Origin: Fluviispira vulneris
Lineage (GTDB): Bacteria; Bdellovibrionota_B; Oligoflexia; Silvanigrellales; Silvanigrellaceae
Assembly: GCF_014281055.1 (NCBI RefSeq)
Contig: NZ_JACRSE010000004.1
Location: 310,001-374,000 of the forward strand
Direction: 5' to 3'
DNA: 64,000 bases
Part shown: in pieces, positions 27,060 through 46,297 of the stretch
Layout of the letters: the number at the start of each line of letters is the position of its first letter
Numbering within the stretch: position 1 is the first letter of the stretch
Notes under the pieces: model-generated
Told to the model about the DNA's origin: nothing
Seen by the model: the letters and a program-made list of their open reading frames with translations, nothing else
Databases searched by the model: none
Translations under genes and position numbers: made by a program

Positions 27060-28307
27060 TCACTCTTTTTCAACCGTATTTTTCCTTTGACCCATTAATT
27101 TCTGCCATAATTCTTCACTTGGTAATAGCTGTATTAAGTTATTTAAATGCAATCTAAATTTTGAAAGTTCTGAATAAACATACTTACGTACAAGATTAAC
27201 TTCCCCCAAGGGTTTCAAATCTTCTGTGCCATGCCATGGAGTAAATGACATATCTTCACAGTATTGCATACTCAAATCACTATTCGACACTTGACCTTTA
27301 GGTAACAACAATGTTGCTAGTTTAAAAATATTTTTTTGTCCATTCCATTGTGTTGGCCATTCTATAGTTGAATCCTCGATTGGCATGGTTTTTTTATCCC
27401 GCTGTGGAATGACAAAAAATTCATAACAAGCGTTTTCTTTTGCTAAATACTGAGCCAAGCCCTCTTTTAAATAATTATCATTAACCGCATTTTTAACAGG
27501 TAAGTCCGAAAAGTTTTGCTTTGCACAAGGCTTTGCGGTAAACTTCATCGCATTATTTGCACCGAGTTTATAAGGGGTCTGACTCCAAAACTGGGAACCC
27601 AAAGGACTGATTTTCATTTCTTTTAATGACTGGGTCAGTATAACCGCTTCATAGGGGTGAGACTTCATCCACTCTTTTAACCCATCAGGCCCCTTTGCAG
27701 ATGCTGTCATCACAGAAATATAATCCTCTGCTTTGCGTAAAAAGAAAATAGGGGTGTCGATCATAATAAAATCTTGTGTATTTTTTTCACCATTTGCTTC
27801 ATAATCATCTAAAAGTTGAGCATTTATTCCAAGCAGTTTTATTGCCATTCCATGTGAGTCGGGAATAAGATCGGATTTTATCTCAGATGTTCCATTCGAA
27901 AAACGTACAAAGGCTTTGTATTCTATCTCACGAGCAAAAACTCCCTTTCTAAAAACTTTTGGCAAGCCTTTTTCGATAATAAATTTACCCACAGCACAGC
28001 CATGATGTTTTGCATGCGCACCTCGTTTAGCTGCTCTTGCCTCACCTGGGCGCGAGACCTGTCCTTTTTTTACGATGGATTGAAACATCTGCGCGACGAT
28101 CTTTTCTAAATTCTCATCACTCTGTAAATATTCTAAGTCTTCAATATTTGGCAAAGAAAGATTTCTATCTAATGGAGATTCAGAGGCTGATATCAGTTCA
28201 TCCTGCTTTTTTATAGGATTTTCACTTGCAATTGCAAAATTGATGTGTGCAAAAGAAAAAGAGCCTAAGACTATACTTATCGCATAATTAAAAATGTTTA
28301 TTTTCAT
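27060..28307 (-). CDS. Exported catalase-family heme protein
   Basis: 415 residues with an N-terminal signal-like segment (about 1-27, ending near FAIASE). The catalase fold shows in AKHHGCAVGKFIIEKGLP near 98-115 (position of the distal His), YKAFVRFSNGTSE near 130 and DSHGMAIKLLG near 150, then DFIMIDTPIFFLR. It matches the small catalase-like branch (SrpA-like) rather than monofunctional catalases, because it is shorter and the usual RLFSYxDT proximal motif is not seen; a Tyr in RKYVYSEL near 388 is a possible heme ligand. It probably acts on peroxides in the periplasm. Confidence 0.75.
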   Translation of the reverse strand: MKINIFNYAISIVLGSFSFAHINFAIASENPIKKQDELISASESPLDRNLSLPNIEDLEYLQSDENLEKIVAQMFQSIVKKGQVSRPGEARAAKRGAHAKHHGCAVGKFIIEKGLPKVFRKGVFAREIEYKAFVRFSNGTSEIKSDLIPDSHGMAIKLLGINAQLLDDYEANGEKNTQDFIMIDTPIFFLRKAEDYISVMTASAKGPDGLKEWMKSHPYEAVILTQSLKEMKISPLGSQFWSQTPYKLGANNAMKFTAKPCAKQNFSDLPVKNAVNDNYLKEGLAQYLAKENACYEFFVIPQRDKKTMPIEDSTIEWPTQWNGQKNIFKLATLLLPKGQVSNSDLSMQYCEDMSFTPWHGTEDLKPLGEVNLVRKYVYSELSKFRLHLNNLIQLLPSEELWQKLMGQRKNTVEKE

Positions 28308-29935: not shown

Positions 29936-30415
29936 TTAAAATATTTTCTTGAAGTTCTTCCGCAAAAAATAGGCTTCTAGTTCTTTTTCATAACCTAATT
30001 TTGCATAAAATTGATGAGCATCTGCACGTTTGGTCTGAGTTGCTAAGAGCACAGATTGACAGCCCTTGGATCTTGCCCATTGTTCTGCTGTAAGCATAAG
30101 TCCTTTGCCCACACCCTGCTTTCTCCAATTGCTTTCCACAACCAGAGCTCCTATTTCTAAGGTTTTACAACTCAAAAGTGAAGGCGCTTCGAAAAAATGG
30201 ATAAAACCAATTATATGTCCATCACAATTGCTCTGAGCAACGCGCACTTGATGATGCGAAAATAAAATTAAATCCTGAAATCTTTTTTCTAATTCAATTG
30301 CAGACCCTGCAAAACCCAGTGCTTCGCAAAGGAAAGCCACTGCTGGTAAATCTTTTTTTTCTAAAGGTCTAATTAAATATTCAAGCTTTTCGCTCTTTTT
30401 ATTATTCTCTTGCAT
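29936..30415 (-). CDS. GNAT-family N-acetyltransferase
   Basis: 159 residues. It shows the N-terminal IRPLEKKDLPAVAFLCEALGF, the acetyl-CoA binding segment IGALVVESNWRKQGVGKGLM near 87-107 (Q-x-x-G-x-G/K form) and the DAHQFYAKLGYEKE end near 138-150. Probably cytosolic; substrate unknown. It starts four bases beyond the end of the defence operon, on the same strand, so it may be the last cistron of that transcript by read-through, although its function looks unrelated. Confidence 0.85.
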   Translation of the reverse strand: MQENNKKSEKLEYLIRPLEKKDLPAVAFLCEALGFAGSAIELEKRFQDLILFSHHQVRVAQSNCDGHIIGFIHFFEAPSLLSCKTLEIGALVVESNWRKQGVGKGLMLTAEQWARSKGCQSVLLATQTKRADAHQFYAKLGYEKELEAYFLRKNFKKIF

Positions 30416-30419
30416 AAAA

Positions 30420-33400
30420 TTATGCCTCCATATTTTTTAGTGTACCTCTTCCAAAAATATCAGGCATTTCCAAAACTATACTTTCCCATGGTGCTGCATG
30501 ATGAAAGCGCAAAGAAGTCACCCCAATATCCATACACGCTTCGTCTATTAATTTATCTTTTTTCTGTTCCATTAAGGAATCATGATGTGGACCATCCACA
30601 AAAACAAATACATTATTTTGCCCATTGTATGTATAGATAAAATCAGGTCTGGCATTTATTTCTGGAATAAATTTTTGCGCTTTATTTGGTAAATTAAAGC
30701 TATTATCATAAAGCCATTGTACAAATTTCTTTTCAAGTTCACTTTCACAGGCTTTTAATAGTTTATCGAGCTGAGTTTTTGAATCTTCTCCTGCGACAGT
30801 CAATGTTTCTTTATGTGACTTTGTTAGATCAAATAAATAACTGCGAATTAATTTTCGATTGAGTATCGCGTGATCTTGTTGATTGGAGTAGCCCATAAGA
30901 CATTTATAGCAAGCAGAAATACAATATCTACTGTCCGTAGGATCCAATATATCTTCACCTGTATCAGGATCATAATGACACAGTTTTAATGCCTCTTTAG
31001 CAACCTGCTGCATGCGTCTTTCATCTAAAGAAATTTTACGTAACGCTCCTGCACCACCTTCTGCAGCTTCATAGAAGAGAATTCCATGGGGCGCAATTTG
31101 ATTCGGTAAAGTCTCCGCAGATAATTCACTTTCAGCTAATTGAGCGACAATTTGGATAGAGGATTTGAGTGCTGCTTGAAATGATGCTATAAATTCTTTC
31201 GAATTATCTGGGAAATTATCGAGATAAAGTGCATTTTTTCTATCTTCGACATAAGGAACGATGAGTTCTTTAGTTTCAAAATCACTTTCACTGCCTTCTC
31301 CAGGCGCTCTTTCCCAGCGCCCAGTATTTTTATCTAATAAAAATCCTCTGAGTGAGTCTTCATCACTCCGCTTTTTCAACCAACCCTCATTCATGCGCCA
31401 AAGCGTTGCGCCTGGCCCATAATGACACGAAAAAAGGATTTCTTTTTCTTCACTTAAAATATTCATTTTTTCTACAATTTTTTCATGCCCTCTCTCAGCA
31501 AATCGGAATAGAGAACGTACTTTATAACCATAGCGTGTGCGCTCTTCCTCATCGGCTGAAATCCGATCCACTTTGTGGGTAGAAACATTTTGCATTTGAA
31601 AACAATGATCGATGGATTCCAAAGAGTTTGAATAACAATTTTCACAGATATCATAAGTTTTTTCATGTGAAATTATATGCAAATAACCACAATTGTTACA
31701 GCATAAGGATTTCTGCGTTAAAATATTGCCATCTACATTACGTTGTGGAAGGATCACTTTGCTTATTTTATAACGAGAACCGTTGTGATAAATCAACGAC
31801 TGCGGACCAAACTCAGACAGCGCAATAAACCTTGGCCTAGCAAGATATTCTGGCTTTTCTTGATTGTATCTACTTTTAAAATAAGCAAAACCTTTTAAAC
31901 CAGGAATAAATGCAGATAAAGGCAAGCGCGGAAAATTATAACCAGGGAGAAAACCTTCACTCGCTAAGTAACGATAAGGATAAAAATCGGCTGATGTTTT
32001 TTCTCGGTCATCGCCTCTTAAATATTCAATTTGTGCTTTTGCCTCTTCTATTTCTCGATCTGCCCGTATTCTATCTTCTTTACTAGCAGCATTTGAGTTG
32101 CTTATTTTTTGCGCTTTATCTCTTTGATTTAAAGCAGACTTAAATAATAAACGCCAGCGATCAAAGGCTAAGTCAAATTGCATATAAGCATTTTTAATTG
32201 TCTCATCAAGCCATTTAGGATTTTTCCTGTACCACTCAGCTTCTTGCAATTCAGGAATAGCATCTAAAACTTTACGTGCTGCTAGCAAGGCAATATTATT
32301 TGTATTGATATCTTTTAATTTAGTTACTTTATCTTCCTTGATAAATGTATTATCTGGTTTTTCATCATTGAGATCGATCACATCAGTCATTTTCGAACCT
32401 AAACGGACACCAGCGGAAGCAAGCCAGATAGCATGTACGTGAGAACGAATAAGATCTTCGTTGCTTAAATCAAGGGGGGGAGGCTTTACACTGCCGGCAA
32501 CCATGTCTTGTGCATTTCTAAAAAAATATTGATCATGACTGTTACCTGAAGAACAATAGGTATACACAAAAGCGGCTTGTCCTCCTCTTCCAGCGCGCCC
32601 ACTTCTCTGTGCATAATTCGCAGGAGTGGGTGGTACATTACGCATATTAACCACATTTAATGAGCTAATATCTACGCCTAATTCCATTGTAGGAGAACAA
32701 CAAAGCAGTTGTAAATCACCATTTCTAAATAGAGCTTCGCGTTCTTCACGATCTGAATCGGGAACCTGCGCCGTGTGCTCTGCAGCTCTTAAATATTTTG
32801 TCAGCACAATAGGCTCTTGATATAAGTTAACAAAAAAAGCAAGGGATATTTCATTTTCTTTTTTAGGTGTGATTTCTCCTTTTTTCCAACATATATCGGA
32901 TAATTTAAGGCGAACTCCCAATGGAACTCCCGGCTTTCTATGCGGTGGTAGCGCAATTCCACAAGCTATCAAGCAGCCAAATAAATAAGGAATAAAAGCT
33001 TGAACTTTATTTCTTGTAACCTTTTCATCTGGATATATTTTTATCAATTCAGTCCGAATTTTTCTGCCAAAAACTGAATAGGCAGAAAGGGAAATACGTG
33101 ACGAAGACTCTTCACTCAAGGGGCCAGGCCAAGCGTATTTACAATGATCAACATTCTTTTTACGTTCTATTTGCCAAAGTTCTGATAATTCTTCTTCTAT
33201 CCTACGCTCAATATGAATTAATGACTCATCTTCCAAAAATTTACTTTCAATACATAAATTTTTCCTGAGTCTTGTCGCGAGATCTTCTAAAAATTCATAC
33301 AATACTTTCTCATTCAATGAGATAAATATATTTTGTCCCCAAATTCGATCTTCTTCTTTTTTTACTAACAGTAAAACTTCTTCAAAATAATTCCGTGTCA

Positions 33401-35771
33401 CTTCCAGAGTTGAATTTTTTACACTCTCAAGCTCAGCTTTTTCTCTAAAGCACGCTTCTAATAGAGGGAATGTGATTCTCAACATGTCTGTGCGGTCTAG
33501 ACTTGGCAAAGTGATTCGCCAATCTTCTGCACTTAAGTCTAGCAAAGCTCTATAGACAAGTAATTCTTTCAAAGCATCTTTTGCTTTTCTTCTCTGAGCA
33601 AAACTTGGATTCTGCGAGTTTTCTCGCATGTAGTCCTGCGGTTCTAGTGAAGACATTTCAAATGCATTGAAGAGTGCTTCTGCTAAATGATCGAATTGAA
33701 TTCCCGAAGGAGGAGCCACTTTCAGCGCTTGCCACAAAGCGCGGCGGATCTGCACAGTATCAATAAAGTCGTTGAAATGGCCCGATTGCAAAGAAGCATC
33801 TTGGCGATTGTCTGTGAAACTCATAAGTTTTTTTGCTTTGTCATCAATTCCTTCACTCGCACGCAAAGAATTGATCACAGATAAAGCAAGGACAGTGGTC
33901 GAGGTGCTACGCCCTTCTGTTCCTAAAGTAGCAAGACGCCAAAAGTCCTTCCCACGCGCATTGTCCGTGAAAAAATCGCATTCTAAACAATAGCGGAAAG
34001 GTCGAGAAAAATAAGCTGCTATATGAGAATTGTCTTGCTTATTTTCATAAATATCACCTTCATCACTTAAATAAATTATCTTGGGCACATGCTCTTTGTG
34101 CGATGTTCCTAATTTTATTTCGCCTTTGCTATTTTCTTCCCACCAGGCATCGGGTAAGTTTTCATAGATAAAATTCTTAAAATCATTCGTTGAAATATTT
34201 TTGTCTGTATGCATATAAACAAAACCTGATTCGCCATTTTTATCACTTTCGTCGGAGAGATCGTGACGGGGCTCTAAGTGAGGTGTAGTTTTATGCAATG
34301 AATTTGCAAAGCGTTTGACCGAAAAATAGTCTGCACCGCATTGCCGACAAAATGCAACAGGAAATAATATTTTATTTTTTTTATTTCCATTTTCATTTGG
34401 ATCAAGCGGAGCATATCTAGTTATTTCTAAACTAAAATAAGATCTATCTAAACTGGTGTAAAGATTGCCACCACGCGTGATAAATTGATGCAATTTAAAT
34501 GGAAATAAAGCACGATTGTTTTCCCCCGTTAAAGAAACAGCTCTTAAAATATTTTTTAAAGCTTTTACACATGTCTCTTCTGTTAAAGAACAAAGTTCTT
34601 TTAATTCCAAAGAAATACCATTTTTTCCATCTAAAGGTCTCGGTTTAGAACGAATTAATTGCTTAGATTTTTCGTCATATTGAACTCCCAGTTTCGACTC
34701 AAGCCAAGAACATAAGGGGTCTGATTTAAGGGATTCTAAGGTATGACTGTCTAAATTTTTTGACCATTTTTTTGTACTTTTTTGTAAGCTTAATTTTTCT
34801 GAATCACTGCTAAACTGCAATTCTTCTGTATGTCTCTCTAATGTTTCTCCGATCACATTCTTCGGTAATATATTGACTCCAAAAATTTTGGATGCACATT
34901 CTGCCACTTCTTTTTTAGGATCGCTACTGTCTTCAGCTGCGATAGTAGCAGAAGTTCCTACACAAATAATATTTTTAGATCCACTCCGTTCTTTGAGTCG
35001 GCGGATGAGCAAAGCAACATCACTGCCTTGCCGTCCTCGGTATGTGTGCAATTCATCAAAAACCAAATAATGAAGATCATGAGTTAGATCAAATATTTTT
35101 TGATCTTCTAGCCTTGTTAACATAAGTTCAAGCATCATATAATTTGTAATTAATATATGCGGTGGCTCCCTTCTTAATTTCTCTCTTTCTTCTTCTTTAT
35201 CCTGTCCAGTGTAACGAGCGATTTGAATGGGCACATCTTCTTTTGCAAAACCGTAGTTAATATATTTTAATAATTCTTCTTGTTGACTGTTGGCGAGCGC
35301 ATTCATCGGGTAAACAATAATAGCTTGTATACCCATATTTGTTTTTTTTCTTTTTAAAATATCATTTACGATTGGAATAATAAAAGTTAAACTTTTTCCC
35401 GACCCCGTACCTGTTGTAACAACATAATTTTCATTTTTTAATGCACACTCTAAAGCCTCTACTTGATGCGTATATAAATCCAAAGGTTTACAGTTTACTA
35501 AATTTAAATTATCTTTTTGTTTATTGGCTAAAAATATTTTTTCACAGATTGGGTGCAATTTATTTTGCTGAACAAGCTCAGTGATATTGGCTTTTCTTTT
35601 AAAGCCTGGATTCAATTGCACCAAAGGAGATGGCCAAAATGCACCTTTTTGCAGTTCTTCTTGTACAAATAAATCCATCTGTTTATTTTTAATGCCGAAA
35701 AAACTTGTAACTAATTTTTTATAATCACTGATAACTTTATCACGTAATGAAAAAACATCAAAAAATGACAT
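30420..35771 (-). CDS. DEAD-box helicase with DUF1998-like zinc motifs and C-terminal nuclease-like domain
   Basis: 1783-residue protein. The first RecA-like domain has the Q-type motif LYTHQVEALE (about 100), Walker A GTGSGKS at 121-127, DELH at 239-242 and SAT at 274-276. The second RecA domain has SPTMELGVDISSLN and QRSGRAGRGGQ near residues 1030-1075. The C-terminal part holds a four-Cys cluster (CCNNCG, CENC) and CISACYKCLMGYSNQQDH, as in DUF1998/MrfA-type proteins. The last 130 residues read ARPDFIYTY then FVFVDGPHHD, as in Vsr/DUF559-type PD-(D/E)XK nucleases. The size and order resemble Druantia DruE; it could also be a DrmA-DrmB fusion. It is the last of four co-directional defence genes, five bases after the helicase before it. 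Confidence 0.8.
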   Translation of the reverse strand: MSFFDVFSLRDKVISDYKKLVTSFFGIKNKQMDLFVQEELQKGAFWPSPLVQLNPGFKRKANITELVQQNKLHPICEKIFLANKQKDNLNLVNCKPLDLYTHQVEALECALKNENYVVTTGTGSGKSLTFIIPIVNDILKRKKTNMGIQAIIVYPMNALANSQQEELLKYINYGFAKEDVPIQIARYTGQDKEEEREKLRREPPHILITNYMMLELMLTRLEDQKIFDLTHDLHYLVFDELHTYRGRQGSDVALLIRRLKERSGSKNIICVGTSATIAAEDSSDPKKEVAECASKIFGVNILPKNVIGETLERHTEELQFSSDSEKLSLQKSTKKWSKNLDSHTLESLKSDPLCSWLESKLGVQYDEKSKQLIRSKPRPLDGKNGISLELKELCSLTEETCVKALKNILRAVSLTGENNRALFPFKLHQFITRGGNLYTSLDRSYFSLEITRYAPLDPNENGNKKNKILFPVAFCRQCGADYFSVKRFANSLHKTTPHLEPRHDLSDESDKNGESGFVYMHTDKNISTNDFKNFIYENLPDAWWEENSKGEIKLGTSHKEHVPKIIYLSDEGDIYENKQDNSHIAAYFSRPFRYCLECDFFTDNARGKDFWRLATLGTEGRSTSTTVLALSVINSLRASEGIDDKAKKLMSFTDNRQDASLQSGHFNDFIDTVQIRRALWQALKVAPPSGIQFDHLAEALFNAFEMSSLEPQDYMRENSQNPSFAQRRKAKDALKELLVYRALLDLSAEDWRITLPSLDRTDMLRITFPLLEACFREKAELESVKNSTLEVTRNYFEEVLLLVKKEEDRIWGQNIFISLNEKVLYEFLEDLATRLRKNLCIESKFLEDESLIHIERRIEEELSELWQIERKKNVDHCKYAWPGPLSEESSSRISLSAYSVFGRKIRTELIKIYPDEKVTRNKVQAFIPYLFGCLIACGIALPPHRKPGVPLGVRLKLSDICWKKGEITPKKENEISLAFFVNLYQEPIVLTKYLRAAEHTAQVPDSDREEREALFRNGDLQLLCCSPTMELGVDISSLNVVNMRNVPPTPANYAQRSGRAGRGGQAAFVYTYCSSGNSHDQYFFRNAQDMVAGSVKPPPLDLSNEDLIRSHVHAIWLASAGVRLGSKMTDVIDLNDEKPDNTFIKEDKVTKLKDINTNNIALLAARKVLDAIPELQEAEWYRKNPKWLDETIKNAYMQFDLAFDRWRLLFKSALNQRDKAQKISNSNAASKEDRIRADREIEEAKAQIEYLRGDDREKTSADFYPYRYLASEGFLPGYNFPRLPLSAFIPGLKGFAYFKSRYNQEKPEYLARPRFIALSEFGPQSLIYHNGSRYKISKVILPQRNVDGNILTQKSLCCNNCGYLHIISHEKTYDICENCYSNSLESIDHCFQMQNVSTHKVDRISADEEERTRYGYKVRSLFRFAERGHEKIVEKMNILSEEKEILFSCHYGPGATLWRMNEGWLKKRSDEDSLRGFLLDKNTGRWERAPGEGSESDFETKELIVPYVEDRKNALYLDNFPDNSKEFIASFQAALKSSIQIVAQLAESELSAETLPNQIAPHGILFYEAAEGGAGALRKISLDERRMQQVAKEALKLCHYDPDTGEDILDPTDSRYCISACYKCLMGYSNQQDHAILNRKLIRSYLFDLTKSHKETLTVAGEDSKTQLDKLLKACESELEKKFVQWLYDNSFNLPNKAQKFIPEINARPDFIYTYNGQNNVFVFVDGPHHDSLMEQKKDKLIDEACMDIGVTSLRFHHAAPWESIVLEMPDIFGRGTLKNMEA

Positions 35772-35776
35772 AATAT

Positions 35777-37981
35777 TTAGAACTCCAAATCAAAAACAGT
35801 CAGAGCTTCATCAAGCTCCTCAGCAATTATTTCAACAGGCTTAAATTCTTTTTGGGTAAAAAAACGTTCCACAGGTTTCCAAAATTCTTTTTCATTCAAT
35901 ACATCTAATAATGGAGTCGGCTGTCCTTCATAGAGAGCTAAAAATTTTTCTTGTGCTCGGGTGATAGCTACATACATAAGACGACGGTTGTCGATATCAT
36001 CAGGCCAATATTTATTATTTGCATCGGCTATAATAATAGAATCAAATTCAAGACCTTTTATCTGATGAATATTTGTGACAGTAACACCTTTGCGAAACTC
36101 AAAAGACTCACGTTCACTTTGTCGCACTTCAATTTTTTTAAATTTTAAGAGCGACTGAAGATCATTTTTTAAAGCTTCAATCATTTGCTTATCGTGTAAA
36201 ACAACACAAATATGCGCATGGGGTGCTTCTTCTATCCGCTTTAAAATAAAATGTGTAATTTGTTCCTTCAATTTAAAATAGGATTGAACAGAAATTATTT
36301 GTGGATAAGCTCCTTGTCTTCCTTGTAGAATTTTTTCGGAACCTATCACAGAATCGGCAAGCCACATGATTGGGAGAGTCGAACGGTGTCCGACTTCCAA
36401 TCTTGTTACTTTTGCATTCCCGAAATTTAATTGTTTTGCAATTTCATCCCAACCAATAAATTCTTTTTCTGGAAATATTTTTTGATTGGTATCGCCAACT
36501 ATAGTAACACCGGTGCGAGAGTTAACAGACTCCAGGAGAACCAATAATTGCATCGCTCCAAAATCTTGCGCTTCATCGATGACCAAGTGATCGAATTTAA
36601 AAATAGTTTCACCTAACAAACCATAGGGCAAACCACCACGTTTGAGTTGAACAAGTCGCAATAAAAGTGCATAGTCATCGTACTCTACATATTTACCGAC
36701 TTTTGCACTGCTAGCCTTACCTTCGCTTTGTATTATTTTTTGTCTTTGTCCTATTTTTTTAGCTTTTTCTTCTGTCAAACCAGGAATGCATTTCATCAAC
36801 CATTCCCAATGGCTTAATAAACTCAACAGTTCTTCTTTATACAAAATAGATTTTTCATAAACATTTTGCAGGAGTATTTCGATTTGCTCCAAACGTTTTT
36901 TTTCATACTCATCTTCTTCTTTTAATATGAGTCTTTTTATTTCTTGTCTGAATTCGATTATATCTTGCACATAGGCTGTTTCACTGCGCTTATATTTAAA
37001 TCGAATATTATCTGTATCGTACGTAGGAATTTTACTTTCGATAAAATCCCAAGTTTTTTTAGCTTGCGCCTTTACATAAACTTCCATCAATTGAGAAATA
37101 CCTGCATGGGATTTTATCATCACCAATTTTTCATTGTCTTTAAAAGAATATTTATCAAATAATTTTTTTAAATTTTTCCCGGAAATGGTTTCTAATTGGC
37201 CTTTATAAACGCTTTCCAAAGCTGAGATTGCCCAGGAATGAAAGGTATTGATTTCAATTTTATCTTCTAAGTTCAAAGATCTTATACTTTGTTTCACAAA
37301 ACTCTGCAGAGATTTATTGAACATCACAACTAAAACTTTAGTTTTTTTATTGATCCCGTGTTCTTCATTTTCATCCCATAACAACCAAGACACTCTATGC
37401 AGAGCTACTGAAGTTTTTCCCGAACCCGCACGCCCTTGAATGATCAGGGGTTCAGATGTTTTTTGCGTAATCAGTTCGTATTGTTCAGGTGTAAGTAAGG
37501 AAATGAGATCGGGTAAGCCTTCTTGTTGTGACTGTTTAACAACTTGAGTTATTTTTTCATTCTCATCTTTGCTTTGGGTATTGTTTAGGTCAACAAAGGA
37601 GCCATCATCAAGACGAACAATTTTTGCGGTGCCATTTAAATCACTCCATTCGAGGGATTTTAAATAACCCGAATATCCCTCGGCCGCGGCAAAAGCTGTT
37701 ACGGCACCTTGTATACTGCGAAAAGGAGGTTCGAGCTCAATTTCTTCACCAATATTCAATTTTTGATAATAAAACTTCGCAACAGGATGCCGCCAATCGA
37801 CTATTTTTTCTTCTTTGTTTGCCACTGCCCCAATGCGAAATTCAAAATCTTCTTTTTTATTTTTAAAAGAAACATAAGCATGCCAAGGCGTGTCCAACTC
37901 TAATTTCGGGGCTAAAACTTGAAACTCTTCGTTCACACGTTCTGCAATTTTAATTGGTTCTTTTTCATTCGCTAAGCTCAT
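35777..37981 (-). CDS. HelD-like UvrD-family (SF1) helicase
   Basis: 734 residues. The N-terminal part has FRIGAVANKEEKIVDWRHPVAKFYYQ near 48-73, matching the GRI...VVDWRAPV segment typical of HelD and helicase IV. The SF1 core has Walker A GRAGSGKT at 183-190, DEAQD near 475, the GDTNQKIFP block and the ITRAQEK end motif near 680. It overlaps the methylase stop by 17 bases and the next gene starts five bases after it, so translation is coupled. In the operon it could move along DNA or displace RNA polymerase; which it does is not shown. HelD-like members in defence operons are uncommon as far as I recall. Confidence 0.8.
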   Translation of the reverse strand: MSLANEKEPIKIAERVNEEFQVLAPKLELDTPWHAYVSFKNKKEDFEFRIGAVANKEEKIVDWRHPVAKFYYQKLNIGEEIELEPPFRSIQGAVTAFAAAEGYSGYLKSLEWSDLNGTAKIVRLDDGSFVDLNNTQSKDENEKITQVVKQSQQEGLPDLISLLTPEQYELITQKTSEPLIIQGRAGSGKTSVALHRVSWLLWDENEEHGINKKTKVLVVMFNKSLQSFVKQSIRSLNLEDKIEINTFHSWAISALESVYKGQLETISGKNLKKLFDKYSFKDNEKLVMIKSHAGISQLMEVYVKAQAKKTWDFIESKIPTYDTDNIRFKYKRSETAYVQDIIEFRQEIKRLILKEEDEYEKKRLEQIEILLQNVYEKSILYKEELLSLLSHWEWLMKCIPGLTEEKAKKIGQRQKIIQSEGKASSAKVGKYVEYDDYALLLRLVQLKRGGLPYGLLGETIFKFDHLVIDEAQDFGAMQLLVLLESVNSRTGVTIVGDTNQKIFPEKEFIGWDEIAKQLNFGNAKVTRLEVGHRSTLPIMWLADSVIGSEKILQGRQGAYPQIISVQSYFKLKEQITHFILKRIEEAPHAHICVVLHDKQMIEALKNDLQSLLKFKKIEVRQSERESFEFRKGVTVTNIHQIKGLEFDSIIIADANNKYWPDDIDNRRLMYVAITRAQEKFLALYEGQPTPLLDVLNEKEFWKPVERFFTQKEFKPVEIIAEELDEALTVFDLEF

Positions 37982-40900
37982 ATTCTTTTTCCTTTACATG
38001 TTTATCCTTTTTTCTCTCTGTTCCCTTAATCTCTTCATCTAAGTCAAAATAGGCAAATGATTTTTTAATTTCTTTTCCTAATAACAGCTGCTGTTCTTCT
38101 TCTTTTTTTCGTTCATTGTTTAGCAGTGAAAGGCGTTCGAGAATCTGTTCCCGCGCTGCAGGAGATGGGGTATAGCGAAATTCACCCTTTTCTAAATATT
38201 TACCTGCATCCTGTCCTTCATAAAAATCCATGCAGAGCTCAATGTCTTGCCATTGATAAGCAGCAAGCACCGCTTCATTTATCTGTTTGTGCAGATTGCG
38301 TAAGGCATAAATATCATCAAAAGGTGGATTTTGTTTGTCTATTTCTTCGCTATTCGATAATTTCTGGTTGTGAAATAAATTATAAACTTTGGTCAAACCA
38401 ATATTACGCTCAAGACAAATACTTTTTCGCTGGGCAAGGTATTTTTCTCCCAGAGAATTTAGCATCTGCAATTGCTCCCGACTTGGGCGCGGAAAGGGAA
38501 AGGTTTCGAAGCAGGATGAAGGTGAATAAGTTCTTGTTTTACCTAAAGTGCTACAATTTTTATCCATCCATAATTCATGAAAGTGACTTTGTAAAATAAT
38601 ATAAATTGATCTAATATTTGTTCCTAATACTACAATTTTATCAGAAAATACTTGCTTAGAATTAATTATAGTTGGACAACAATGCGCTGATACCCTGGCA
38701 ATGGCAAAAGTTTCACTTTGAATATTTAAATAATTATATAATCCCTTTGCGGAACTTGCATATTTCCACCAATATTTTCCTCTATTATCCGCTATTGTAT
38801 TTTTTCCAATATTTTCTTCTCTTTCAGGTTTTACTAACTTCTCAACTCTGTTTATTGCGGATGGGTAATCTGCAGCAACAGAGCCAGTATAGTTTGGGGC
38901 AGCAATTCCAAAGAAAATTGAATTATTTTCACCATTAATATGTTTTCTTTCATTTACTAATGATTTTGATATTTGATCCCACTCTTTATTCCCTGCTCTT
39001 CTTAAAGGCCAATCAAAAAAATTTATCACATATCTACTAGCTTCTTGCGCTGGACTGGTATTTAAGTCATCACCTGTAATATAAGGAAATAAAATATCAT
39101 TAGGATTTTTGTTTTCATTGACTAAGTTTTCTTGCATTATTTTTAATTCAGTCTTTGGCTCTAAAGTAAAACCTCTGCCAAGAATAAAACTGCCTTGAAA
39201 TGACTCTTCAGCATTTTCAACTAAAACAAAAATATTTCCACTTTTTCTTTCTGACAGTTCCTCATTTATAATATGAGTTTTTATCCCATTAATTGTCTTT
39301 TGCGCATGATCTTTTTCCTTCGCAATATGCACCACACTCACCTGTAAAGAAGCCATCCCTTCCCAGGGAGTCGAAGTGATTGCGTTAGTTATAATACCTC
39401 TCCACTTACAGACAATCGGTGTTAAACTTGCATCTTTAGTATAACCTTGAGCAATTGTACTCGTTGCAATAAAACCTAAATTGCCATTTAATTTTAAACT
39501 CATAAAGTAACGGGTAAAAAAATACGCGCAAAGATCTGTAGTGACGTTCGAATTTCTATTTTGCACCTTTAGAAAATTTAAATATTTATTGCCTAAGTTT
39601 GAACTAATTCTAGATCCCCCCAAAAAAGGGGGATTGCCAAGCACGCAGTGGAAACCACCGTCTTTAAAAACTTCGGGCCACTCGAGTTCCAGGTGAAAAA
39701 AGTTGTAAATATCGGCTAGTCTTTTGGTCTCGGCGAGTTTTTCAGGGTGTAAATTTTCGTTGTTGTGCAAATCTGCAAGGGTGGGCGCGACGCTGTTCCC
39801 TGCCTGATACTGCCAAAAAAAGGCTGCGCACCAAAGATCAGCCCGTAGTTTTTCGAGCAAGTATTGCTTTTCTTGCTTGAGTTTTAAGAATTCTTTTTCG
39901 CGGGAAATACGACTTTTGGCATCTTCCACGTCTGTTTCCGACAATTGATTAAAGGCCTCAGCTAAGTCTTCACTTGCTATGCCCATAAAGGGTTCAACCC
40001 CACTTTTGAGCTGCTTTTTATTTAAATCCCGTGCATTATTGGCAATGGTTTTGTTGTCCGCCAAGTAAGAAAGTCCACGCTGCGCAGGGTCTTTGAATTC
40101 AGGCTGCGCGGTATAAGCTGCGTTTGGAATATGGCTTGGCCACAGTTCGTAGGCAAGCCCGCGGATTTCTTTTTCCAGTTGTTTCTTTATTTTTAATTTT
40201 GCTTCCCGCTCTTTTTCAGGCAAATGGAATGAGTTGCCTAAGGCCGCTATCAACTTCTCCCGCTCTTTTTCGCGCTTGGCGATTTCTTCGCTCAATTCTT
40301 TTTGTATGGCAGCGCACATACTCTTGGTTGGCACACCGAGCAGGGCATCGCCCACGCGAATGTGGTGTTCTAAGAAAGTCAGCGGTTTGCCTGCTTCCAT
40401 GGACTCCATCCAGAGCGCCACGCGGCACAGGTCGATCGCCATGGGGTTCACGTCCAAGCCATAAATGCATTTGCGAATGACTTCTCTTACGGCCATGCGT
40501 AAATCAAGCGGTGGCGGGGAATCATCGCCGGTGCGGAGTTTCGCAATTTCAAGGCCAAGCCGATGGGCGGCAGCCACTAAAAAATGCCCACTGCCGCAGG
40601 CGGGATCCAAAATCCTGAGTTTAAACAATTCTTTTTCTTTGTCTTTCGCCGTTTTTCCTTTTTCGAGGGCATCTTCAATCGAAGCTTTTAAAGCAAAATC
40701 GAGGACGGAATTTAATATGCGTGTAGGCGTATAGTGCGCTCCTGTTACTTTACGTTCGTCGGTAAACTCTTCATTGTTTTGTGCGCCGATAGAAACCCGC
40801 TTCAATTCAAAATTAATATTGGGGATTAAAGGTAACAAACTCTCATACACACCACCAAGTTCTTCGGCACCTAAATGTCCCCAATTGACTCTCTGCTTTG

Positions 40901-42188
40901 TTCCTTTATCATCTTCGGTGAAACAGAGTGAGCGGAGTGAATTTAAAAAATATTCATTACTGACATTCGCATCGTTTAAAAAACTGGTTGCTTCATTTGA
41001 AAATAAAAATCCTCCGAGTGCCGGTAAAGCAAGACTCGTCAAACCCTCTTCGCTACCTAAGGCTTGGGTAATGAGCTTAAAAGAAAGCCACAGGTCAAAG
41101 TGCGCGCTGCCCGTTTGCCCATTGGTGGCAAAAATGCGCAAGCGTTCGGTTGAATAATATTTTTTATACAGTTCTCTCGCTTTATTTGCTGCTTTTGGCC
41201 CATGCAATAAATTGCGATCTTCTGCAACAAATAAAAAAACCAAGCGATAAATCCAGCGTAACGATTGCCGATAGAATTCTTGTTTTGTGCATTCACCTGA
41301 TTCTAATTGTGCACGAAGTCTTTCTCCAGCTTCAGAATAGTCAGAGATAAAACCAGACGCCAAGTACTCAATAGCTTTGCTCACCCCAATTTTAAGTTTA
41401 TCGAGGGCGCGAATGCCGCTTTCCATTGCTTTTTTATGCCAGAGCTCAATTATAATTTCTTTTGATTTCTCTTTTTTTAATAAAAAAACGCTCTTGTGAC
41501 ATAGTAAATATAATTTTTCAAAACTGGCAATGTCGTTCTCAGAGAAAATAAAATCACAGTCGAATTCTATATAGGATTGTCTTGTTAAGCTCGCAGTATC
41601 TCTTAAGAGGCGAATGGATTTCCCATTGGAGATAACCCCCCAAAGATGTTCCGAAGCCGCATTTAAATACTCTTGCATAAGCGAATGCGCTGTTACTTTA
41701 CGTTCCACAAGCGAGTTTTCATTTGCACTTTCGCGCAATATAGAAAAATTACGCTGGGAGTCGAAATCTTCCCACACACTGGTAAACAACAATGGAATTT
41801 GATTGTCTTCAATATAATCTAATTTATATGAGTTGGAGTTCAGTTTTTTTTCTATCCCTAAGGAATTTGGAATGGAATAACCTAATTCAGAAAATAATTC
41901 ACTTAAAAATTCGATTTTGGTTTTTAAGCGCTCATGATCCAATTCATCTTTATTCCAATCTTTATGACTCAATTGCTTTTCTTCTTGTCTTAGTTTCGAC
42001 CAAGCATTCCATTTGAGTAAAAGTTCGTTCCAAGATCTGTGAATTTTTTCTTTTAAGCTCTCTGCCCCAGTTAATGAATAAAGTTCACGTTTTATTTTCT
42101 GCTCTATATTTCTTTCAGTTAGACTTTCAATAAAATCACGATGAAATAAAGCACCCTCTAAATGAATTGCTGAATTTTTATTTATCAT
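37965..42188 (-). CDS. Large Eco57I-type N6-adenine DNA methylase (DISARM/BREX-like)
   Basis: 1407 residues. After a helical N-terminal region with EHLWGVISNGKSIRLLRD near 180-197, the methylase core has TGAHYTPTRILNSVLD (about 475-490), motif I LDPACGSGHFLVAA near 525-540 and catalytic motif IV GNPPF near 850 with the context LGNPPFLGGS. The C-terminal part is of the TaqI/Eco57I target-recognition kind. Size and layout fit DrmMI of DISARM type I, or PglX-like proteins. I see no convincing nuclease motif, so it should mark self DNA. The catalytic core (about 39600-40720) is clearly richer in G+C than its flanks. It starts four bases after the DrmD-like gene. Confidence 0.8.
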   Translation of the reverse strand: MINKNSAIHLEGALFHRDFIESLTERNIEQKIKRELYSLTGAESLKEKIHRSWNELLLKWNAWSKLRQEEKQLSHKDWNKDELDHERLKTKIEFLSELFSELGYSIPNSLGIEKKLNSNSYKLDYIEDNQIPLLFTSVWEDFDSQRNFSILRESANENSLVERKVTAHSLMQEYLNAASEHLWGVISNGKSIRLLRDTASLTRQSYIEFDCDFIFSENDIASFEKLYLLCHKSVFLLKKEKSKEIIIELWHKKAMESGIRALDKLKIGVSKAIEYLASGFISDYSEAGERLRAQLESGECTKQEFYRQSLRWIYRLVFLFVAEDRNLLHGPKAANKARELYKKYYSTERLRIFATNGQTGSAHFDLWLSFKLITQALGSEEGLTSLALPALGGFLFSNEATSFLNDANVSNEYFLNSLRSLCFTEDDKGTKQRVNWGHLGAEELGGVYESLLPLIPNINFELKRVSIGAQNNEEFTDERKVTGAHYTPTRILNSVLDFALKASIEDALEKGKTAKDKEKELFKLRILDPACGSGHFLVAAAHRLGLEIAKLRTGDDSPPPLDLRMAVREVIRKCIYGLDVNPMAIDLCRVALWMESMEAGKPLTFLEHHIRVGDALLGVPTKSMCAAIQKELSEEIAKREKEREKLIAALGNSFHLPEKEREAKLKIKKQLEKEIRGLAYELWPSHIPNAAYTAQPEFKDPAQRGLSYLADNKTIANNARDLNKKQLKSGVEPFMGIASEDLAEAFNQLSETDVEDAKSRISREKEFLKLKQEKQYLLEKLRADLWCAAFFWQYQAGNSVAPTLADLHNNENLHPEKLAETKRLADIYNFFHLELEWPEVFKDGGFHCVLGNPPFLGGSRISSNLGNKYLNFLKVQNRNSNVTTDLCAYFFTRYFMSLKLNGNLGFIATSTIAQGYTKDASLTPIVCKWRGIITNAITSTPWEGMASLQVSVVHIAKEKDHAQKTINGIKTHIINEELSERKSGNIFVLVENAEESFQGSFILGRGFTLEPKTELKIMQENLVNENKNPNDILFPYITGDDLNTSPAQEASRYVINFFDWPLRRAGNKEWDQISKSLVNERKHINGENNSIFFGIAAPNYTGSVAADYPSAINRVEKLVKPEREENIGKNTIADNRGKYWWKYASSAKGLYNYLNIQSETFAIARVSAHCCPTIINSKQVFSDKIVVLGTNIRSIYIILQSHFHELWMDKNCSTLGKTRTYSPSSCFETFPFPRPSREQLQMLNSLGEKYLAQRKSICLERNIGLTKVYNLFHNQKLSNSEEIDKQNPPFDDIYALRNLHKQINEAVLAAYQWQDIELCMDFYEGQDAGKYLEKGEFRYTPSPAAREQILERLSLLNNERKKEEEQQLLLGKEIKKSFAYFDLDEEIKGTERKKDKHVKEKEYELSE

Positions 42189-42191
42189 ATT

Positions 42192-45100
42192 TTAATTCCA
42201 ATTTACAACAGGAAGAAAGACATAGACTCCTAAGACATCGGGTACACCCACACACTCAACCCGCACACGTCGGATAGTTCCCTGTGTGCGCACACGTCTA
42301 TGTGTTTCTAAAATATCGATCATTCTTTTTTCTTTTTGCCACAAGGATAATTCATTGCATAAATGAGAAGCTGCTTCTAGAATTGGTTTTAAAAAACGAT
42401 CCCTTTCTGCCACGGTTACGTTGGCATCGGGTTGAGCTTTACTTAAAATAAGTTCAGCACTTTCACCCATAGTTATTTGATCCTGGGAAAAATCAGTAGG
42501 AGAACCTTCAAACAGAATGGGCAATATTTCTTCGACAAGCGAGGACTCTTCCTCTTTTTCTTCTCTTAATAAGTAACGAAACCGGCCTAAAAGAACCGAT
42601 GTTCTTTTACTCACAACTTTAGTGCGCATAACCCCAGCTCTTGCCGCAACTTTTAAAGGGTGATTTTTAATTAAGCCATCAAGCGAGGTTTCAAGCACTG
42701 TTCTAGCAATGTCTTCCACTTCCGGTGAGGTGCGTAAAACAAGTTTATCGATTTCTGCAAGACAGTTTGGATCGAAACTCAGTTTGAAGGAATAGTCTTT
42801 TTTATTCAGAGAACCCAGTCTATTTTTTAACTGCAAATCTGGGATTTGTGCTTCTATATAATTATCTTTTTTAACATAATGACCGCGCGTGCGCTCTATT
42901 AAAGTTAAGATAAATCTTTCAACATCTTCTTGACTGCCTAAGGATTGCTTCATGGCATCAAGTTCTTTTTTTACATCATCGACAGTGACTTTACTGTGAC
43001 TATAAAATGTTCTTGAAGTTTTTTGATATTCTTCTTTTACTTTATCTATTTTTGTTTCCAGTTTTTTCAAACGAAAGGCTTTTTCATTTGCCTCGAAACT
43101 TGCTGAGGTGTCATCGAATAATAATATTTGCTGAGATTCTTCTTTTTTTGTTTCTTTAACTTTTAAAGCCAATTGTAATATTTCTTCGCCGATATCTGTA
43201 ATAGGTAAATGCACTCCGAGTGCGTTGCGAATTTGTCTTTGCTTTTCATGCAAAATTCTTAAAAATATTTCTTCAATTGGATGGTCTTTACCGATTAAAG
43301 TAAATATATGCACTTCTGGAGATTTCTGCAGCAATCTATCCACACGCCCTTCTCGTTGTTCATGCCGATTGGGATTCCAAGCAAAGTCATAATGAATAAC
43401 TGTGTCAAAGAGCTCCTGTAAATTGACCCCCTCACTTAAACAGTCCGTACAAATAAGTATCCTTTGTCCGATATGCTCTTGAAAATCTTTCAGCACCATC
43501 TGTCGCTCTTCAGGTGAATTTTTTCCTGTTAAGGTGCGAATTTCGAGTTTGCTTTTTTGAGTGAAGGGTTGAATATTCTCATCTATTACCAATTCGTCGT
43601 ATATGTATCTTGCTGTATCAATAAATCGACAGAATATAACAATATTTCTTTTTTTCCCTAAGCATTTCTTAATGAGGATTTCATGGATTAAATTCTGTAA
43701 TTTTGGATCTTTCTTCCCAGTCAACGATTTTAAGGTTAAAGCAAGCTCTCTTTGCTTTGGACTGAGCTGCGAAAAGACAAATTCTTCCTCTTCTTCAATT
43801 GTTCTTTCAAGCGAATCTATCTTTTTTTCTTCAAGCTCAACAGTTTCTTTTTTCTTGCGCCCTCTTTTTTTCGCCTCTGGTTCTTTCGTTGCTGTTAGTT
43901 CAATTTGCGCTTTTTTCTTTGTTTTATTTTCTTCAAAATCAAGTTGAATGTTATTTATGAAATCTATTTCTTCATTTTCAAAAGAAACTCCAGGAACTTC
44001 TTCATCTGATAAAAAATAACTTTCATCTTCGCTGTCATCATTTTCATTCTGCTCGTAACTTATACTGCCGAATATATCTCTGTGGGCTTGCTTTTTTAAT
44101 TCCTCTGCATTTTTTGCATTTTTCAATGCCGATCTTCTACAGAGTGATAGGTATGCTGCTTTCGGACTCGAGGTGAGAGCTAAGACAAGTGTAAATGCAG
44201 ACCACCACTGCGCCTGCCTCCACTTGTTAGAATTTTCACCCACGTTTTCTTCTTGCAGTTGGGTGGCTTCAGCTAAAATAGAAGTACAAAGATCGATATT
44301 TAATTTAGGTAAATTATATGTAACATTATTGCGTATTCTCTCGGGAAATAAATTATCACCTAAAAATTTCTTAATATCTGGCCGTCTTCTCTGGACAAAA
44401 TAATTGGCTAATTCTTCGCGCAGTTTTTCATTTTCACTTCCCGACATATTTTCAGGTAATTTTTCTGCTAATTTTGGATTTAATATTGAAATAAGCGATC
44501 GAAAAGCTTGATTTTTTCCACTGTGAGGAGTTGCAGTAAGTAATAAAATATTTTTCTTCGGATTTTTTGCAACATCAGACAGCAATTTATGCCTCAATTG
44601 TTGGGTTTTACCCACCGCAGAGTCAGCGCATTCGTGAGCTTCATCCACCACCAAAAGATCGGGGCATTTAGCATAAAACTCATTTCTGTTCCGTTCGCTT
44701 TTAATAAAATCTATGCTCACAACTGTAAAAGGATATTCATCAAATATTCCTTTTCCTGGAGAACAATTTTTCTCTAGCGTTACAGCTTTTTTTGCTGTGA
44801 CTTCAACTGCCTCAATATGAAATTTATCATTAAGTTCCTTTGTCCACTGACTCACTAAATGAGCTGGACATAAAACTGCAAAACGTTTTACTTCATGCCT
44901 GTCGATCAATTCTCGGACAATAAGCATGGCTTCAATGGTTTTACCAACTCCAACATCATCTGCAATTAAGAGTCTTATTGCTTCGCTTTCTTGTCTCAGG
45001 GCAAGGATAAGTGGCACCAATTGATAAGCTCTTGGTTCGACAGAAATGCGCCCGAAGGAGCGAAAGGGACCGACGCCCGTGCGGATTGAAAGTCTTGCAG

Positions 45101-45329
45101 CATCTCTTAGCAAACGTGCAGAAGAAGCATCGCCTGCTTCTGCTAACGATGGAAATGGAAATTCAGCGGGCTCTATCTTTTCAATTTTTGTTAATATTCC
45201 GGTTTCTTCATTTCCTTCTCTACCTGCTAAAGGTCTAAGTAAACAGAGTTCGGAAGAACTGCCAGGGAGGACTGTCCACTCCCTCCCTCTTGCACGCACC
45301 AAAGAGCCAGGTGAAAAATGATGATCCAT
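42192..45329 (-). CDS. drmD: SNF2-family helicase, DrmD-like
   Basis: 1045 residues from ATG 45329, chosen because AAAGGG lies five bases upstream; an upstream extension of 20 residues lacks a good site. The N-terminus FSPGSLVRARGREWTVLPG matches, from memory, DISARM SNF2 helicases. The core has Walker A DDVGVGKT near 124-131, DEAH at 229-232, LLLTATPHSGK near 265, CTDCLSEGVNLQ near 630 and the NRHEQREGRVDRL motif near 655. A charged Lys/Glu-rich insert lies about 410-520. It is the first gene of the four-gene operon, so the promoter probably lies in the 500-base AT-rich gap upstream. It would move or remodel DNA in phage restriction. Confidence 0.78.
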   Translation of the reverse strand: MDHHFSPGSLVRARGREWTVLPGSSSELCLLRPLAGREGNEETGILTKIEKIEPAEFPFPSLAEAGDASSARLLRDAARLSIRTGVGPFRSFGRISVEPRAYQLVPLILALRQESEAIRLLIADDVGVGKTIEAMLIVRELIDRHEVKRFAVLCPAHLVSQWTKELNDKFHIEAVEVTAKKAVTLEKNCSPGKGIFDEYPFTVVSIDFIKSERNRNEFYAKCPDLLVVDEAHECADSAVGKTQQLRHKLLSDVAKNPKKNILLLTATPHSGKNQAFRSLISILNPKLAEKLPENMSGSENEKLREELANYFVQRRRPDIKKFLGDNLFPERIRNNVTYNLPKLNIDLCTSILAEATQLQEENVGENSNKWRQAQWWSAFTLVLALTSSPKAAYLSLCRRSALKNAKNAEELKKQAHRDIFGSISYEQNENDDSEDESYFLSDEEVPGVSFENEEIDFINNIQLDFEENKTKKKAQIELTATKEPEAKKRGRKKKETVELEEKKIDSLERTIEEEEEFVFSQLSPKQRELALTLKSLTGKKDPKLQNLIHEILIKKCLGKKRNIVIFCRFIDTARYIYDELVIDENIQPFTQKSKLEIRTLTGKNSPEERQMVLKDFQEHIGQRILICTDCLSEGVNLQELFDTVIHYDFAWNPNRHEQREGRVDRLLQKSPEVHIFTLIGKDHPIEEIFLRILHEKQRQIRNALGVHLPITDIGEEILQLALKVKETKKEESQQILLFDDTSASFEANEKAFRLKKLETKIDKVKEEYQKTSRTFYSHSKVTVDDVKKELDAMKQSLGSQEDVERFILTLIERTRGHYVKKDNYIEAQIPDLQLKNRLGSLNKKDYSFKLSFDPNCLAEIDKLVLRTSPEVEDIARTVLETSLDGLIKNHPLKVAARAGVMRTKVVSKRTSVLLGRFRYLLREEKEEESSLVEEILPILFEGSPTDFSQDQITMGESAELILSKAQPDANVTVAERDRFLKPILEAASHLCNELSLWQKEKRMIDILETHRRVRTQGTIRRVRVECVGVPDVLGVYVFLPVVNWN

Positions 45330-45829: not shown

Positions 45830-46297
45830 ATGATACTTTTAAAAGCAATTCAGAAAAATTTTTGTCATTTAATTAAGCTCTCATTAGTTTATATTGCAAC
45901 CATCTCAACCCAAGCGCATAGCTCATTGACTTATTGCTCCACATTATGTGGTTTGCTTGATACCACTGTACGAAGCACAAGTCCTGATGAAGCAAGAGTT
46001 TATTGCTCTTCAGCAAATAAAGAATGGGCATATTTAGGAAACGGGAACGTTAAAGTTACTGGTACTTGGAAACAGCAAAAAGTTAGAAATTTTTACAAAA
46101 TATATTTCATTATAGACGGGGGAGAAAGTACTATCTTCCAGTTACAAAGAGCTTGTAAAAATGAATTTGGTGAAGATTTTATTTTTGCACAACCTGACAA
46201 TCCACGAACGAATTCTTGGCATACCTTTGCAATTAATGATAATATAATGGCTCTAGGTCATTATTTATTACAATTAAGCTCTCCAGGACGATTATAA
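45830..46297 (+). CDS. Small secreted protein of unknown function (intact paralogue)
   Basis: 155 residues; AAGGA lies about six bases before the ATG. The N-terminal hydrophobic region (about 10-30, LIKLSLVYIATISTQAHS) is a likely signal peptide, so the mature protein is about 125 residues with four cysteines. A diagnostic C-terminus reads EFGEDFIFAQPDNPRTNSWH then FAINDNIMALGHY and GRL. No family is recognised. A decayed copy lies at 51516-51974, beyond the glycan cluster, in the same direction. Confidence 0.75.
   Translation: MILLKAIQKNFCHLIKLSLVYIATISTQAHSSLTYCSTLCGLLDTTVRSTSPDEARVYCSSANKEWAYLGNGNVKVTGTWKQQKVRNFYKIYFIIDGGESTIFQLQRACKNEFGEDFIFAQPDNPRTNSWHTFAINDNIMALGHYLLQLSSPGRL

Follow-up and report, generated by a model that had tools for sequence, protein, structure and literature searches.

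A Fluviispira vulneris operon predicted to encode an ARMADA anti-phage system of the Type I lineage with a short-arm HelD helicase as its fourth gene

We analyzed a 64,000-nucleotide stretch of the Fluviispira vulneris genome (GCF_014281055.1, contig NZ_JACRSE010000004.1, positions 310,001 to 374,000; hereafter the window), in which the minus strand at 30420-45329 holds four co-directional open reading frames (ORFs). With a probability of roughly 0.8, these four genes form an anti-phage system of the ARMADA kind, predicted to be active in defence, whose lineage is Type I and whose fourth gene encodes a short-arm HelD helicase. ARMADA itself is already known, having been named in a preprint of 15 September 2025 (PMC12458937); what appears to be new is a variant of its Type I lineage with the order A-B-HelD-C and a short-arm HelD.

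As described in that preprint, the ARMADA core consists of ArmC (a YprA-like helicase with a C-terminal Vsr nuclease, a BrxA-like helical insert after RecA1 and a zinc beta-barrel in RecA2), ArmA (BrxHII/RapA-like), and ArmB (a PglX-like methylase). The general gene order of Type I is YprA, BrxHII, methylase, and in Type II the YprA gene is followed by an additional one, ArmD, whose product is a helicase that resembles GajB and has a RelE-like domain at its N-terminus. The Escherichia coli Type II cluster protects against 13 of 80 phages by direct, nonabortive action, for which all four genes, the SF1 helicase included, and the ATPase and methylase motifs are required (PMC12458937). The term "HelD" has 0 occurrences in the main text of the preprint, whose supplementary tables may list the variant.

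Gene layout and assignment to ARMADA

A first-pass annotation of the window had described four tightly packed minus-strand genes encoding a SNF2 helicase, a 1407-residue Eco57I-type methylase, a HelD-like SF1 helicase, and a 1783-residue DEAD/DUF1998-like helicase. The ORF listing (Table 1), with spacings in transcription order of +3 bp, -17 bp (overlap), and +5 bp, bears out the packing, and Pfam and NCBIfam agree with the four identities. The motifs searched for are present in all four proteins (GVGKT/DEAH in ArmA, DPACGSGHF/NPPF in ArmB, GSGKT/DEAQD in the HelD-type protein, GSGKS/DELH in ArmC), and ArmC has five CxxC pairs, those at 475 and 595 among them. The ArmA start at 45329 is likelier than that at 45389, because its ATG is preceded by AAAGGG and agrees with the start of the homologue in a second species of the genus (G002).

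Table 1. Features of the operon (window coordinates) and related stand-alone HelD loci (locus coordinates)
Feature	Coordinates	Strand	Remarks
ArmA-like SNF2/RapA (BrxHII/DrmD/DpdE-like) helicase	42192..45329	-	domain models; longest ORF to 45389, 1065 aa from first ATG
ArmB-like PglX/DrmMI-type N6-adenine methyltransferase	37965..42188	-	1407 aa; DPACGSGHF at 528, NPPF at 852; PADLOC DrmMI, Pfam Eco57I and MmeI_Mtase
HelD-family SF1 helicase, short N-terminus	35777..37981	-	734 aa; DWRHP at residue 62
ArmC-like YprA-family (DUF1998/MZB) SF2 helicase	30420..35771	-	1783 aa
MZB/DUF1998 zinc-binding domain of ArmC, residues 1531-1625	30897..31181	-	Pfam PF09369, 33.3 bits (cut-off 24.2)
ArmC C-terminal nuclease-like domain, from about residue 1672 to the end	30420..30758	-	Vsr/PD-(D/E)xK type by motif; E1680, D1710, D1726-G1727, H1730-D1731
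Stand-alone HelD clade loci	L102:8730-10817; L099:7674-9908; L100:10847-12934; L101:6201-8636; L062:6277-8481		several with short N-terminus

Pfam finds SNF2-rel/Helicase_C on ArmA, Eco57I, MmeI_Mtase, and N6_Mtase on ArmB, UvrD-helicase on the SF1 protein, and DEAD, Helicase_C, and MZB (the MrfA zinc-binding, or DUF1998, domain) on ArmC. The profile search against PADLOC that the first-pass annotation had proposed returned DpdE (513.5 bits) and DrmD (267.8 bits) for ArmA, DrmMI (PDLC02643, 628.6 bits) for ArmB, DruE3 (380.2 bits) for ArmC, and RTasHel (82.7 bits), C3a187 (72.5 bits), and GajB (67.2 bits) for the HelD-type protein; no ARMADA-named model is among the answers, the PADLOC copy being of 2023. 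In NCBIfam all four proteins score below the cut-off of every family listed (DrmD on ArmA: 294.9 bits, cut-off 610; HelD_BACSU on the SF1 protein: 147.3 bits, cut-off 419). PHROG 23807 matches ArmA (440.8 bits) and PHROG 25988 matches ArmB (506.5 bits); both families are function-unassigned, and ArmA/ArmB-like genes therefore occur on some phage or prophage records.

Taken singly, the best curated names of the proteins (DpdE/DrmD, DrmMI, and DruE) favor what the first-pass annotation had proposed, a DISARM/Druantia hybrid of descent separate from ARMADA. The proteins of L009, a Type I ARMADA locus by gene order, however, receive the same three best models from the same 2023 copy (PDLC02853, PDLC02643, and PDLC00037; DpdE/DrmMI/DruE3), ArmC sits in the Type I lineage (see below), and this combination defines ARMADA according to the preprint (PMC12458937), so that a separate descent is very improbable. 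The E. coli Type II genes (L074, L066) obtain DrmD/REase_MTase_IIG/DruE3/GajB. The composition given in the first-pass annotation, a DISARM front joined to a DruE-like effector and an SF1 motor with no DrmC, thus stands, but the operon is not a new hybrid system because the combination had already been named; the annotation's own suspicion that it was missing a named variant was right.

With DISARM class 1, the operon shares a DrmD-like helicase and a DrmMI-like methylase, but its DUF1998 part is fused to the helicase in one 1783-aa protein and there is neither a separate DrmB nor a DrmC; a PLD domain is absent at E 0.001 from the 16 window proteins scanned, both operon neighbors included. With Druantia III it shares a DruE-like giant YprA helicase, but DruH was not found among the four operon proteins and two neighbors (PADLOC rows shown), and Pfam finds no PLD domain on ArmC.

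Membership in the ARMADA clade is found for the YprA-like helicase in a 46-row ArmC tree, built by quick search with SH-aLRT (Shimodaira-Hasegawa-like approximate likelihood ratio test) support from references of our own choice, without the preprint's representatives, and leaving out L073, the rows with cut ends L016, L020, and L021, and the cut-off E. coli ArmC fragment of L074. The window and G002 rows group with 38 rows of the Type I lineage (support 100), within which they are placed beside 11 rows from Myxococcota, Actinomycetota, Deinococcus, and others, a placement with a support of only 86. The DruE3 and Type II ArmC rows fall outside this lineage on long branches, for which reason their exact place is unsure. 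The window ArmC is 31-37% identical to 41 relatives over 1568-1918 aligned columns, against 26-31% over 600-956 columns for Type II ArmC and DruE; the cut-off E. coli fragment reaches 40% over 311 columns. Among 34 genome loci found with ArmC, 21 have a same-strand ArmA homologue downstream and four others, all cyanobacterial, an ArmB homologue upstream, while neither is seen in the remaining nine, seven of which are shorter than 10 kb.

Type I ARMADA as described in the preprint (examples by gene order: L009 and L045) resembles the operon in ArmC lineage, BrxHII-like helicase, PglX-like methylase, and nuclease-like C-terminus, but has the order YprA, BrxHII, methylase and no SF1 helicase, whereas the order in the window is BrxHII, methylase, HelD-type, YprA. 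In one of these examples, on Deinococcus radiodurans plasmid MP1 (L045:13998-25494), the order is YprA-helicase-methylase and the methylase is annotated as two neighboring genes. Type II of E. coli (L066, L073, L074) likewise has three helicases and one methylase, with ArmA-ArmB first and an SF1 helicase; its SF1 helicase, however, is a RelE-GajB/UvrD fusion after ArmC, and its ArmC is on another branch, aligning in part only, at 26-30% identity. Cyanobacterial ARMADA loci (L014, L015, L022) share an SF1 helicase directly upstream of ArmC and a methylase farther upstream, but this helicase is of the ParE/RelE-UvrD (ArmD) kind, on another branch of the SF1 tree than HelD.

These cyanobacterial loci are of the Type I lineage, and the ArmD-like RelE/ParE-UvrD gene lies directly upstream of ArmC at L014:7530-9668, L015:7565-9673, and L022:7572-9689 (L017 is partial). 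The genes share a tree group with E. coli ArmD, and Pfam finds ParE in L014 and not in L022; the preprint reports the RelE-UvrD/ArmD gene for Type II (PMC12458937). On a Thermus thermophilus plasmid (L075:3235-21252), an ARMADA-like operon has BrxL and an NYN-domain gene beside ArmA, methylase, YprA, and a UvrD-type gene, next to a type III-A CRISPR locus. In E. coli (L074:6699-31345), Zorya II, Druantia III, and ARMADA adjoin, an array that according to the preprint lies in islands at tRNA genes (PMC12458937).

The HelD-family helicase and its short N-terminus

HelD is a motor whose usual task is the rescue of RNA polymerase. The name "HelD-like" given to the SF1 motor in the first-pass annotation was right: the best-scoring NCBIfam model is HelD_BACSU both for the window copy and for its two relatives in the genus (G002 and G005), whereas it is PcrA for E. 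coli ArmD and a cyanobacterial relative. The HelD_BACSU cut-off does not discriminate here, since the canonical relative L064 also stays below it (165.1 bits). The best sequence match in the PDB is Bacillus subtilis HelD (6wvk_H, 1.2e-31), and the protein groups with canonical HelD in an 18-row sequence tree (support 100/99). The structural model (mean predicted local distance difference test, pLDDT, 73.9) has its best Z with UvrD (2is4_A: Z = 24.7, root-mean-square deviation (rmsd) = 3.2, 414 aligned, residues 152-698); the match to HelD (6wvk_H: Z = 19.9, rmsd = 12.0, 532 aligned) spans residues 9-702. The fold match alone is not decisive between UvrD and HelD, and it is the sequence tree that decides for HelD. 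ArmD/GajB was considered and rejected as an identity because the protein has no RelE/ParE match in Pfam, lies on the HelD branch, and is placed before YprA. Pfam misses the RelE-like domain in E. coli L066 too (ParE is found in L014 only), so that the distinction from ArmD rests on the tree and the gene position.

In the HelD proteins studied, DWR is absolutely conserved, with DWRH and DWRN forms in class III of Deltaproteobacteria, as reported in PMC8655204. In six canonical HelD of the window's bacterial class, the motif (DWR/DWK) lies at residues 117-126; three of these rows lose part of their N-terminus at the edge of the locus, so that their motif may lie farther along still. The copies of the window, G002, and G005 have it at 62-64, and their N-terminus is thus about 60 residues shorter. 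According to PMC7749165 and PMC8655204, a two-helix N-terminal arm of HelD enters the secondary channel of RNA polymerase. Because the N-terminus is shorter by this much, there is no room for such an arm in the window protein; the absent stretch corresponds to the arm, which is missing or vestigial. The model has one short helix (9-26) in the N-terminal region and retains the long helical insert, which we read as the probable clamp-arm region. With HelD class III as described in PMC8655204, the protein shares the DWRH motif and a helicase core with a long helical insert, but differs in the shorter N-terminus, in a C-terminal tail of 35-40 residues, and in operon context. Lacking an arm for the secondary channel, it is not expected to work on polymerase in the manner of B. 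subtilis HelD; binding to polymerase is nevertheless possible, since the arm of Mycobacterium smegmatis HelD is rudimentary and merely helps anchoring (PMC7749165).

Occurrence, descent and genomic surroundings

The full operon is present in two of eight genomes of the genus (G000 and G002), the same two in which ArmA, ArmB, and ArmC are full-length. All four genes of G002 are in the same order, each 53-57% identical to its counterpart, with overlaps of 1-4 bp; because the order is kept, the arrangement is not due to chance, and co-occurrence in another genome, on which the first-pass annotation had made its proposal depend, is observed. The match to ArmA in G002 contains one TAG, but it starts 30 bases ahead of the ORF (L059 1554-4718); since the ORF has no internal stop, the TAG is upstream of its start. 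All that matches in G003 is a stretch of 219 residues of ArmB, at 30% identity.

The HelD-type gene occurs in three of the eight genomes, the third being a stand-alone copy in G005 (61% identical) that adjoins a DUF262-type gene fragment and a putative IS21-type transposase (names by ORF reading) and may be an operon remnant or the donor type. No other HelD at E 1e-20 is present in the eight genomes, and a universal housekeeping HelD was rejected as an explanation because none is found at that threshold in five of the eight (one of these five being only 72% complete). There is no further HelD-type copy at E 1e-60 in 58 genomes of the phylum. Relatives were found in four of 282 genomes of the phylum of L009 (E 1.6e-111 to 6.3e-144), with no ARMADA gene on the contig stretches examined around them, the rest of these genomes not having been searched. 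Together with the three genus copies, these four relatives make up a clade (99/97) that is sister to canonical HelD. The motif is DWR in L100 and DWQH in L102 at 57-60 (L102: 60); the short N-terminus is not universal in the stand-alone clade, since that of L099 is longer, with GWRH instead of DWR at residue 95, and the DWRH of L101 lies at 181 of the longest frame (57 for a start at Met125). HelD alignment and ArmC scans found no relatives on viral contigs, and tblastn of plasmids with the HelD protein gave 70 records, all below 60% identity, three of which cover 80% of the query.

Among 47 ArmC-like loci outside the genus, the RelE-UvrD (ArmD-type) gene occurs in eight and the HelD-type gene in none (0/47). 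These loci are not a random sample: 34 came from an ArmC pattern search and 13 were chosen from plasmid matches, six are on contigs shorter than 8 kb where neighbors are barely visible, in some neither ArmA nor ArmB is seen, and L066 and L073 score nearly alike in every row compared. Given the stand-alone relatives and this absence from other ArmC loci, the HelD gene appears, from sequence comparison, to have been recruited from a stand-alone family.

The same distribution bears on a reading that is compatible with ARMADA: the three ARMADA genes would be the defence, and the HelD-type gene would be a co-transcribed stand-alone factor (for example, in RNA polymerase rescue) that is not needed. 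The stand-alone relatives in G005 and in the four genomes above, the 0/47 count, and the position of the window copy nearest to the G005 orphan agree with it. On the other side, the gene lies mid-operon with overlapping reading frames in two diverged species, the eight genus genomes have no HelD beyond the three copies at E 1e-20, so that it is not a universal housekeeping copy, and E. coli Type II ARMADA cannot do without its SF1 helicase, as the preprint reports (PMC12458937). We consider such a passenger possible but doubtful.

Several observations weigh against reading the operon as a Type I-lineage ARMADA system with HelD as its fourth gene. Its gene order, A-B-HelD-C, is unlike both published ARMADA orders. 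The ArmC tree comes from a quick search, contains four long branches, and lacks the preprint's Type I representative. Two copies of the operon were found, both in one genus, and the other Type I-lineage loci examined carry no HelD gene. In G005 the HelD gene stands alone, a full-length match to ArmA, ArmB, or ArmC being absent from that genome, and in a 21-row SF1 tree (without the Geobacillus row L067), the window copy is closer to this orphan (92/92) than to the G002 operon copy, so that the tie of HelD to the operon may be loose. The fold comparison supports the nuclease end of ArmC only weakly (see below). No phage test of a locus with a HelD gene is known to us.

The flanks scanned (12 other window proteins) do not resemble a defence island, with GNAT, catalase-like, sugar epimerase/glycosyltransferase, and methyltransferase genes. 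As a fifth member, the GNAT gene that lies 4 bp downstream (29936-30415) was rejected because its relatives in G002 are on contigs C1 and C5 and the operon is on C4. Close relatives of the two flanking genes tested are absent from the genus, which argues that the operon lies in variable DNA. A small secreted-looking protein beside the operon (45830-46297, no Pfam match) has 32-36% identical relatives at L061:7967-8380 and L061:10756-11247, about 11-14 kb from the G002 operon, and a catalase-like protein 2 kb from the operon (27060-28307) has a 52% identical relative at L061:11353-12510, about 15 kb from the G002 operon; with two neighbors having relatives 11-15 kb away, the surroundings are only partly different between the window and G002. 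The 64-kb window has no tRNA. Promoter-like sites (58 vs. 52.4 expected in the window) are uninformative, and terminator-like sites (25 vs. 12.6 expected) are mostly inside genes.

The ArmC C-terminus and the predicted mechanism

The nuclease-type residues E1680, D1710, D1726, G1727, H1730, and D1731 of ArmC occupy alignment positions that are conserved in 33-36 of 42 homologues, and a 28-row alignment shows them to be nearly invariant; the zinc residues are conserved in the same homologue alignment. A model of residues 1120-1783 (mean pLDDT = 84.9) matches MrfA (6znp_A: Z = 12.1, rmsd = 4.3, 232 aligned) and DrmB (7s9v_B: Z = 9.4, rmsd = 4.9, 262 aligned) over the canopy. Matches of the last domain are weak; one of them, BstEII (9ibq_A: Z = 5.7, rmsd = 3.1, 95 aligned), scores below unrelated LuxS rows (Z = 7.0-8.4, other part of the model) and a mitoribosomal protein (Z = 7.9). 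Against PDB sequences, the C-terminal profile finds two giant helicases, 9tu7_Y (2108 aa, 3.6e-11) and 9wae_A (1970 aa, 1.2e-10), and four unrelated rows at E 0.3-1. A Vsr entry is absent from both this profile search and the fold comparison, and the fold match is weak, so that the label "Vsr-type" rests on the motif and on the family assignment in the preprint (PMC12458937).

This weak fold match, together with the PglX-type methylase and with the grouping of ARMADA and BREX in PMC12904381 among systems that restrict by unknown mechanisms, favors a BREX-like exclusion: methylation would mark self and the helicases would do no more than block the replication of the phage, while ArmC would not cut. 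We hold this to be unlikely, as the nuclease-type motif is widely conserved among the ArmC homologues and, according to PMC13192584, DNA is cleaved in vitro by DruE, a relative whose nuclease is of another type.

For the operon as an ARMADA system, we infer that it defends the cell, that methylation marks self, that ArmC cuts, and that HelD has a role in this. ArmB would methylate adenine in a short motif of host DNA and so mark self. ArmA, a RapA/BrxHII-type translocase, and ArmC, a YprA-type helicase with a zinc canopy and a Vsr-type end, would engage unmarked incoming DNA, probably at single-stranded or replicating stretches, and ArmC would unwind and cut it, the cell surviving. In related systems, as reported, unmethylated DNA that has a 5' single-stranded tail activates DrmAB of DISARM (PMC9142583), and 3' single-stranded DNA serves for the loading of DruE, which cuts long DNA (PMC13192584). 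The HelD-type protein would, somewhat more probably than otherwise, act on the same DNA, either stripping RNA polymerase or other proteins or serving as a second motor. A more speculative proposal, to which we give little credence, is that RNA polymerase on unmethylated phage DNA is seized or stripped off by the clamp arm of the short-arm HelD, and that the single strand thereby exposed is passed on to ArmC; transcription of the invader would then mark the cut site, and the HelD and RelE-UvrD types would be alternative fourth modules of one system.

An ARMADA variant whose fourth helicase comes from another SF1 family, known members of which bind RNA polymerase, lends itself to an SF1 swap, which would ask for the contribution of the SF1 subunit and whether transcribing polymerase belongs to the target. 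The loci compared here suggest that SF1 helicases joined the ARMADA core at least twice, once as the HelD type and once as the RelE-UvrD type. The locus also points to a clade of HelD proteins without most of the secondary-channel arm.

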